Below are positions 6,632 to 7,838 of a stretch of 16,394 nt of DNA, in pieces; the stretch's first letter is position 1, and each line of letters starts with the position of its first letter. Made by a program: the position numbers and the translations under genes. Below the pieces are notes generated by a model. The model worked only from the letters and a program-made list of their open reading frames with translations. It searched no databases and was not told the DNA's origin. Source of the DNA: Thermoplasmata archaeon (GTDB taxonomy: Archaea; Thermoplasmatota; Thermoplasmata; Thermoplasmatales; Thermoplasmataceae); contig JAJZZZ010000014.1 in the NCBI GenBank assembly GCA_021797265.1, positions 1 to 16,394 of the forward strand, written 5' to 3'.

Positions 6632-7060
6632 TTGAAACAAGACTCTCTTGAAACAAAGATAACACTTCGCATTTCACAGGAGGAGATAGATGAAATTGAT
6701 GAGTTTCTCAGGTTAAACGAGCGTTTCCCAAGTCGCTCTGAATTCATCAGATTCTCTGCACTTGACTACATTTCACGCTCTAGGGTGATTGTGGAGAGCT
6801 CGAAAAAGCAATCAGTTGAACTCAGTGAGAATCTGGAGAAGCTCATAGATATTGCAGTTTCAAATGGAATATTCAAATCCAAAACCGATGCCATTTCAGA
6901 AATTTTGGAGAAGGCGTTTGTTGACGGGGTTGTAAACGGGATACTTAAGACAAAGATGGAAGGTTTTTCAAAACTCATGCAGGAAATGAAAGCCTTTGAA
7001 GATATGAAGAGGAACCTCGCGGAAGATGGAAAGGAAAAAAGGGTAGAGAGAAACAGGTGA
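6632..7060 (+). CDS. Tandem ribbon-helix-helix (RHH) DNA-binding protein, CdrS/CopG-like
   Basis: 142 aa. Residues about 8-48 match the RHH (MetJ/Arc/CopG) fold: a short basic beta strand (TKITLRIS) followed by two helices with the turn RFPSRSEFIR. Residues about 61-98 repeat the pattern: SVELSENLEKLIDIA then GIFKSKTDAISEILEKA. Two RHH units in one chain would make an intramolecular pseudo-dimer. The remaining 45 residues are charged and probably helical (coiled coil or oligomerisation). The TTG start at 6632 is used because no ATG precedes the first RHH strand and the TATA box fits it. The gene is followed after 4 bases by an FtsZ-like gene, as in the haloarchaeal cdrS-ftsZ2 operon, so a cell-division regulator is a fair inference; it probably also represses its own promoter through the GTAC motifs upstream. 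Confidence 0.82.
   Translation: MKQDSLETKITLRISQEEIDEIDEFLRLNERFPSRSEFIRFSALDYISRSRVIVESSKKQSVELSENLEKLIDIAVSNGIFKSKTDAISEILEKAFVDGVVNGILKTKMEGFSKLMQEMKAFEDMKRNLAEDGKEKRVERNR
7055..7060 (+). promoter_or_regulatory. Ribosome binding site of the FtsZ-like gene
   Basis: AGGTGA includes the stop codon of the RHH gene and lies 4 bases before ATG 7065, so it selects that ATG over the in-frame ATG at 7074 and indicates translational coupling. Confidence 0.65.
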
Positions 7061-7064
7061 AGAT

Positions 7065-7838
7065 ATGGAAATAATGGGTGAAAGTCAGATATATGGAAAG
7101 ATCAGAGGGCTGGCAAGAAAATACTTCCAGGAGAGAAACGACAATATGGTATTGAGCTTTGGGCTGACAGGATATTCAATACTTAAGGACATAAAGCCTC
7201 TACAGGTCCGAAAGACAGTTTACAAATCAATCCAGTTCAAAAATGAGAGAGCATTTATCAAACCCTCTCACACGGAAGAAGGTGAGATAGTCATCGAAGG
7301 TCCTGAAGATATGCATGTCTCAATAATGTCAAAGGAGGAGCTGGAATACAGAAAAAAAATAGAGGATTACGAGTCCTGGTCAAACCCTCTCGAATCTGCT
7401 TCAGTTTCCATTGATTATGTCGAGACTGCTGATAATGTTTCAATTGTGGCAAAGCAGATTTTTGAGTCTCTGGAGAAAACCAACTCCATTCTCCTAGTGA
7501 GTGAATTCGGAAATGAGTTTATTCAGGCCCTTCATATGGAAACCCTGAGACTTGCTGAATCAAAGAATATAGCCCATTACAGCTATATAATAAAACCTGC
7601 AAAAGTTTCCGGATCAAGGCGCAAGGTATCTGAGATAGGGCTCCAGGAAATCAAGAAGTTCACGAACCATGTGAGCATATTCGACGTACAAACAGTTTCT
7701 GAGAAACTCAGAGCAGACGGCTTCCCAAGAATCTCTATACCAGAGAAGATAAATGAAAGAATCGCCAGAAAGGTTGAGGTACTCTCAGCCAAAATGTCCA
7801 ACGCATCAGAGTTGCTTAAATATCAGCTTTCTGCGTGA
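7065..7838 (+). CDS. Divergent FtsZ/tubulin-like protein lacking the GTP-binding signature (putative)
   Basis: 257 aa, shorter than FtsZ (about 350-400 aa), and not assigned to a named family by me. By eye it follows the FtsZ N-terminal domain: NMVLSFGLTGYSILKDI (27-43) sits where FtsZ has its first strand and G1 loop; SILLVSEFGNEFIQALHMET (141-160) where the GGGTGTG T4 loop should be; and IIKPAKVSGSRRKVSEIGLQ (175-194) followed by EIKKFTNHVSIFDVQTVSEK parallels the 'KPFxFEGxRR...A..Gl.eL...vD.lIvI.N..L' stretch of FtsZ. The glycines of the T4 loop are lost, so GTP binding is unlikely. The C-terminal part after helix H7 (IPEKINERIARKVEVL) is missing. No membrane segments. Operon partner: the RHH protein upstream. 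A pseudo-tubulin that acts with or on FtsZ is inference and should be tested by profile search. Confidence 0.7.
   Translation: MEIMGESQIYGKIRGLARKYFQERNDNMVLSFGLTGYSILKDIKPLQVRKTVYKSIQFKNERAFIKPSHTEEGEIVIEGPEDMHVSIMSKEELEYRKKIEDYESWSNPLESASVSIDYVETADNVSIVAKQIFESLEKTNSILLVSEFGNEFIQALHMETLRLAESKNIAHYSYIIKPAKVSGSRRKVSEIGLQEIKKFTNHVSIFDVQTVSEKLRADGFPRISIPEKINERIARKVEVLSAKMSNASELLKYQLSA

Follow-up and report, generated by a model that had tools for sequence, protein, structure and literature searches.

A tandem ribbon-helix-helix gene paired with a truncated FtsZ relative that lacks the GTP-binding loop in Thermoplasmata

The gene pair and its FtsZ-like product

To our knowledge, little is known about how division is controlled in the wall-less Thermoplasmata. 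The 16,394-nucleotide stretch of a Thermoplasmata archaeon analysed here (the window; contig JAJZZZ010000014.1 of assembly GCA_021797265.1) carries a pair of genes that bears on this question: a gene for a tandem ribbon-helix-helix (RHH) protein is followed, after a gap of 4 bases, by a gene for a protein of 257 amino acids (aa), here called pseudo-FtsZ, which consists of the FtsZ GTPase domain and helix H7 (Table 1). An earlier note on this DNA had placed the two open reading frames at these positions and with this gap, had assigned two RHH domains to the first product, and had read the second as an FtsZ N-terminal fold whose GTP-binding T4 loop is replaced and whose C-terminal half is missing. 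All of this was borne out, and neither of the outcomes that the note had named as counting against it, a match to a different fold or loss of the pairing in close relatives, was seen.

The fold of the pseudo-FtsZ was assigned via its relatives, profile comparison and structure models. Its elements follow the order of the FtsZ N-terminal domain (H0-S1-H1-S2-S3-H3-S4-H4-S5-H5-S6-H6-H7), fold and profile of the FtsZ-type GTPase domain place it in the FtsZ/tubulin superfamily, and no other fold was matched. In the comparison with FtsZ entries, the aligned range stops at residues 201-217, or at 232-239 for archaeal entries, and the chain ends with H7, without the T7 motif and C-terminal domain of canonical FtsZ. 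The GGGTGTG loop of canonical FtsZ is SEFGNEF in the window and is kept in none of the 24 members of its group; in addition, the glycines of T1 are kept only in part and the NTD of T2 is gone. A direct NCBIfam scan of the window protein and a PDB sequence search with the first alignment of the pseudo-FtsZ gave no match. Its database relatives number nine (E-values 1.7e-150 to 2.6e-59), one of which, the fragment P0004, has the same sequence as the window protein.

Both proteins are kept by selection, since the ratio of nonsynonymous to synonymous substitution (dN/dS) is 0.04 and 0.05 for the pseudo-FtsZ and about 0.02 for the tandem RHH protein in comparisons with loci L001 and L002 (L numbers denote loci and G numbers genomes). 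Within the window's subfamily (13 rows), the invariance of H7 given in Table 1 compares with 53 of 257 residues over the whole protein, and H7 is conserved on both faces, unlike H4 and H5; loop 42-50 and strand S1 reach an equally high mean conservation. One face of H7 is normally covered by the C-terminal domain; with that domain gone, we infer that a partner covers it in this subfamily. In a wider set of 17 rows, the best conserved part is the altered T4 region (GFGGxFxQ) together with S4.

Table 1. Features of the gene pair and its flanks in the window
Feature	Position	Strand	Remarks
aIF2-beta-like gene	5743..6366	-	eIF-5_eIF-2B and TRAM domains; divergent neighbour
Promoter region, candidate operator of the RHH protein	6367..6631	.	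five GTAC sites (6448, 6457, 6545, 6559, 6577), three of them TGTACA
TATA-like TTTAAATA	6596-6603		3' of the GTAC sites
Tandem RHH protein	6632..7060	+	142 aa, TTG start; RHH1 ~6653-6781, RHH2 ~6809-6931
Pseudo-FtsZ	7065..7838	+	257 aa; FtsZ GTPase domain and helix H7; C-terminal domain missing
SEFGNEF in place of the FtsZ T4 GTP-binding loop	7500..7520	+	GGGTGTG in the canonical FtsZs of relatives
Helix H7	7728..7832	+	residues 222-256; 18 of 35 residues invariant across 13 relatives, both faces conserved

Distribution and history of the short FtsZ family

The pairing is kept at eight of the nine loci of near relatives, the upstream gene of L007 being lost to a contig end. More widely, RHH regulator and FtsZ-family protein are encoded together in 29 of the 30 fetched short-FtsZ loci (all but L056), with the tandem RHH gene immediately upstream and in the same orientation; some pairs are separated by gaps of up to 74 bases and others overlap, eight of them by exactly 4 bases. 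Across 300 genomes of the class, the profile of the degenerate members finds matches in 60, the weak ones being ordinary FtsZ, and the RHH profile in 287, of which the weaker ones may be other RHH proteins. In 40 further RHH loci, a non-random sample picked by hand (the first 20 unseen by rank, then by selection), the next gene encodes a short FtsZ-like protein in 22, a very divergent form in eight and a product of 157-179 aa in ten. The very divergent form is linked to the short-FtsZ family by profile (E-value 4.6e-8), and to FtsZ directly only at an E-value of 0.25; in G171 it lies in two frames (L099:1949-2663), by sequencing error or because the gene is broken.

The GTP motif is missing from all 24 degenerate members, which are similar in length (244-281 aa), and from seven more divergent ones, and is present as GGG(T/M)G(S/T/G)G in 23 of the other 26 short members (not in L112, L126 and L127). 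The set of 26 is the remainder after the other groups and includes these three loci and not L123 or L128; the degenerate set leaves out L036, which is degenerate and cut by a contig end, and the broken frame L099 stands in no set. Thus, the arrangement is not limited to genomes with a lost loop, as many members retain the GTP motif. The T7 motif, by comparison, is absent from all 57 short members, whereas each of the 49 long frames that carry a GGGTG-type loop has it; the canonical frames were chosen by both motifs, and every long frame with the first also has the second.

The aIF2-beta-like gene beside the pair marks the same locus in relatives. It was found in 46 of 76 loci, a count in which three places occur twice, and since it also stands beside some members with an intact motif (L054, L058, L059, L090, L091, L111), these and the degenerate members occupy one locus. 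In the aIF2-beta tree, the loci with degenerate members and those with the 157-179-aa product (40 rows) split from seven others with an SH-aLRT (approximate likelihood-ratio test) support of 100, which fits the GTP loop having been lost once in that group; L112, on the other side of the split, lost its loop separately. The very divergent group, whose loci lack the aIF2-beta neighbour, is absent from this tree.

On the other side of the pair, four minus-strand genes (Fe-ADH-like dehydrogenase, class-III aminotransferase, amino-acid permease and amidase; 7858-13276) lie between the pseudo-FtsZ gene and pyrI in the window. The same four genes stand there in L001, and a pyrI-like gene, judged by eye, comes directly next in L003, L004, L005, L006, L007 and L008.

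The tandem RHH protein and its promoter

The first RHH domain of the window protein matches the NCBIfam CdrS model over residues 9-50 (E-value 5.6e-5) and, weakly, Pfam RHH_1 (E-value 0.012), and the second matches only a ParD-antitoxin model, weakly, over residues 60-90 (E-value 0.044). At 23.1 bits, the CdrS match lies below the model's cut-off of 100, and the model is named for haloarchaea, so the protein does not qualify as a CdrS orthologue by that measure. Among 18 family members, with E-values up to 0.1 counted, 17 match CdrS, six match ParD TIGR02606 (best 1.9e-5) and six match the model of the cell-cycle regulator aCcr1, and in Pfam 13 match RHH_8 and ten match RHH_1.

The 294-bp promoter stretch contains five GTAC sites against 0.60 expected. 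The same excess is seen only in L001 (five) and L002 (six), and six more distant loci have one or two sites against 0.80-1.37 expected; at least one TGTACA is present in all nine loci. The paired form TGTAC-N9-TGTAC occurs once in G001, at the promoter of the RHH/pseudo-FtsZ pair, and in G002 at that promoter and at one place inside a coding frame; with the reversed control pattern also matching once in each of the two, only the G001 place speaks for a paired box. The GTAC-rich stretch may be the operator, and the boxes suggest autoregulation by the RHH protein.

Relation to canonical FtsZs

Members of the short family co-occur with canonical FtsZ. Among the genomes of the nine relatives, eight have two separate canonical FtsZs and the ninth has one, and 18 of 19 further short-FtsZ genomes show two or more PF00091 matches in frames that are at least 324 aa long. 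In G097, a single frame of that size passes the cut-off, and its locus is L056, the one without an RHH gene. No RHH frame of the window's type was found beside canonical FtsZ in 47 loci scanned over about 3.5 kb each.

In an unrooted 82-row tree, a branch with 100/100 support separates the 47 canonical FtsZs from all 35 short ones. The tree includes nine of the 24 degenerate rows and no very divergent row, and two of the 49 canonical frames were dropped as identical; it has no outgroup, its long branches may join falsely, and an origin from FtsZ1 or from FtsZ2 is not readable from it. By this sequence comparison, the pseudo-FtsZ is a third, separate FtsZ-type family, not FtsZ2 itself.

The RHH gene of the window stands before a truncated partner rather than a full-length ftsZ. 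Searching 18 genomes with the CdrS model revealed further RHH genes; of the three places then read, two have an RHH gene directly before a full FtsZ, and both lie outside the 47 loci scanned. These operons, in G173 (L137:673-2020) and G068 (L139:1476-2879), encode RHH proteins of 103 and 116 aa and FtsZs of 335 and 350 aa, respectively. The RHH genes match the tandem-RHH profile (E-values 6.4e-11 and 8.5e-14), and the FtsZs have the C-terminal part, GGGTGTG at T4 and a T7-like motif (NIDFSD and NIDLSD). Hence the class Thermoplasmata does have RHH-FtsZ operons of the cdrS-ftsZ2 kind, and the pseudo-FtsZ operon may be a derived sister of the cdrS-ftsZ type rather than its only counterpart.

The nearest relatives also have a second CdrS-like RHH gene (117-aa frame; G001:C41:22922-23065 and G002:C1:156-299), which is not on a contig with a listed PF00091 match. 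Other divergent tubulin-family frames (315, 315 and 190 aa; G169:C1:184044-184313, G173:C7:53526-53795 and G219:C3:114304-114573) match only the second half of PF00091 and lie away from the RHH pair.

Genomes without FtsZ

Ten of 24 genomes with the RHH gene have no PF00091 match, and these are the ten with the 157-179-aa product (L093, L097, L098, L101-L103, L105 and L107-L109), which is encoded by a gene overlapping the RHH gene; the remaining 14 encode a short protein of at least 235 aa, except G171 with its broken frame. A SepF match is likewise absent from all ten and present in all nine others tested (G282 is below the cut-off). Among 120 genomes of the class, six lack PF00091, all within this group, which forms one clade (SH-aLRT 80). 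A published survey reports Picrophilus, Acidiplasma and Ferroplasma to be without FtsZ, SepF and PRC-barrel proteins (PMC10936438), and these FtsZ and SepF absences fit the group found here.

The tandem RHH gene and the 157-179-aa gene are candidates for a role in the FtsZ-less division of this clade. That the 157-179-aa products are homologous to short FtsZ is unsupported (best hhalign E-value 0.02, probability 2.4%). ESCRT-III (PF03357) was also considered as a uniform replacement and set aside: it was found in five of the ten genomes and gave no Snf7/ESCRT-III match in G033, G043, G061, G191 and G112, in a weak search whose Sulfolobus control fell under the cut-off.

Proposed role and alternatives

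We propose that the 257-aa protein is a third FtsZ paralogue, reduced to GTPase domain and H7, that binds canonical FtsZ and limits or remodels its assembly, in a dose set by the RHH protein; we give this an even chance. Lacking the usual GTP loop, the T7 side and the C-terminal domain, the short FtsZ would be unable to form a normal protofilament alone. It could still contact canonical FtsZ1, FtsZ2 or both through FtsZ-type surfaces and, on the model of ARC3, cap or sequester them. The RHH protein, predicted to be co-transcribed with it, would bind the TGTACA boxes of their own promoter. A division regulator that touches FtsZ through an FtsZ surface is the most economical reading, and ARC3 is its precedent.

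Several observations weigh against this proposal. A direct Pfam scan of the window protein gave no match, and model residues 62-108 are mostly of low confidence. Across the 17 rows of the wider set, H7 is unexceptional, with a mean conservation of 0.46 against 0.66 for S4 and 0.69 for T4. The reversed pattern of the paired box, used as a control, also matches once per genome in G001 and G002, and this is why autoregulation is only suggested. Four stretches upstream of ftsZ hold three GTAC sites, 152-340 bases from the start and none nearer, and at the sepF loci there is no box in L135 and no box pair in L136; together with the control, these reads speak against a division regulon built on shared TGTACA boxes. 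Moreover, as the ten FtsZ-less genomes are one clade, their link with FtsZ loss counts as one event, and the persistence there of the RHH gene and its overlapping gene is not explained by a pure FtsZ regulator.

That persistence strengthens a possible, if doubtful, alternative in which the short FtsZ acts mainly on its RHH partner, as a co-repressor or sensor that alters RHH DNA binding and perhaps reads free FtsZ, so that the state of the Z-ring is passed to transcription. Consistent with this are the upstream, same-strand position of the RHH gene in 29 of 30 loci, with eight exact 4-base overlaps, and the resemblance of 17 of 18 RHH members (E-values up to 0.1) to the division regulator CdrS. 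However, gene order alone is no proof of contact, and the hhalign result (E-value 0.02, probability 2.4%) does not tie the products of the FtsZ-less clade to short FtsZ. Both regulation of FtsZ and action on the RHH partner may be true.

A structural adaptor, sitting in or beside the FtsZ ring and co-assembling with it or tethering it to a partner in the membrane or envelope while leaving assembly uninhibited, is unlikely. The FtsZ fold is kept, both faces of H7 are conserved in the window's subfamily, and the moss third FtsZ works with FtsZ2 via GTPase domains (PMC13274647), but SepF, established as the anchor in archaea, was found in 27 of 28 genomes (all but G003). A replacement is thus unneeded, and on this count the reading as a SepF substitute was rejected. 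It is quite improbable that the pair is a toxin-antitoxin-like module, with RHH as antitoxin and the short FtsZ as a protein that poisons FtsZ assembly: the gene order, the promoter boxes and the weak similarity of six of 18 RHH members to ParD would suit it, but the fixed chromosomal place by aIF2-beta (46 of 76 loci, as counted above) is unlike that of a mobile pair. Decay of a functionless FtsZ copy, which loss of the GTP motif and C-terminal domain might suggest, can practically be dismissed given a dN/dS of 0.04-0.05 and given that lengths stay alike (24 members span 244-281 aa) and the pair stays together over deep divergence.

A broader scheme, which we offer tentatively and consider unlikely to hold in full, is a class-wide division checkpoint in which a non-polymerising half-FtsZ senses or caps the Z-ring and signals to the co-encoded tandem RHH factor. 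Its origin would lie beside an RHH-FtsZ operon; a GTP-binding form would then have given way to a GTP-independent one, with further reduction wherever FtsZ and SepF disappeared. The series of loci with intact motif, degenerate motif and a short product without FtsZ in any case offers a natural experiment for separating the parts of FtsZ that serve polymerisation from those used in contacts, and as Thermoplasma acidophilum carries a member, the proposal is directly testable. For the acid-loving Thermoplasmata, these results suggest a division regulator built from a worn-down copy of the division machine.

Comparison with known systems

The cdrS-ftsZ2 pair is described as widespread in archaea (PMC7439475). 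Like the haloarchaeal pair, the window has an RHH gene directly before an FtsZ-family gene, and its RHH1 resembles CdrS (E-value 5.6e-5). In contrast, its RHH protein is a tandem and longer (142 aa; CdrS has 55 aa), neither GTP loop nor C-terminal domain is found in the partner, and two full FtsZs are encoded elsewhere. The earlier note's suggestion that the locus could be the Thermoplasmatales counterpart of CdrS-FtsZ2 therefore stands in its CdrS-like RHH and FtsZ-family partner, and gives way where the partner proves to be a separate third family, two full FtsZs remain and the G173 and G068 operons exist. Those two operons share the gene order of the window pair and differ in an FtsZ that is full-length, with C-terminal part, GTP loop and T7-like motif.

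The note had also known of no characterised protein like the pseudo-FtsZ. In the literature consulted, which included no preprints and few subscription papers, no FtsZ without C-terminal domain and GTP loop is described as paired with an RHH gene, which agrees with it; yet a 248-aa relative from T. acidophilum (P0013), of the same family and with GFGGNFSQ at T4, is already named "cell division GTPase", so the FtsZ link of the family was partly visible in databases. That name comes from the database only, and as its GTP loop is degenerate, "GTPase" is doubtful. FtsZl1 and FtsZl2 are likewise divergent members of the FtsZ superfamily, with C-terminal regions unlike those of FtsZ, but they were identified by a GGGTG(S/T)G loop, have long C-terminal regions, and FtsZl2 retains T6, H7 and T7; Thermoplasma is unmentioned in that text (PMC2875224). 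Physcomitrium FtsZ3 is a third FtsZ that acts on the ring with FtsZ2 (PMC13274647).

ARC3 of plant chloroplasts is an FtsZ-derived accessory protein, presumably of independent origin from the window protein. It carries a MORN domain, which the window protein, with no Pfam match and a chain that ends at H7, does not have. ARC3 binds chloroplast FtsZ1 and FtsZ2 and inhibits their assembly (PMC5471200; also PMC5855766). The pseudo-FtsZ may likewise be an FtsZ-derived accessory that acts on full FtsZs, and if it does regulate FtsZ, it would be an archaeal case of the ARC3 principle.
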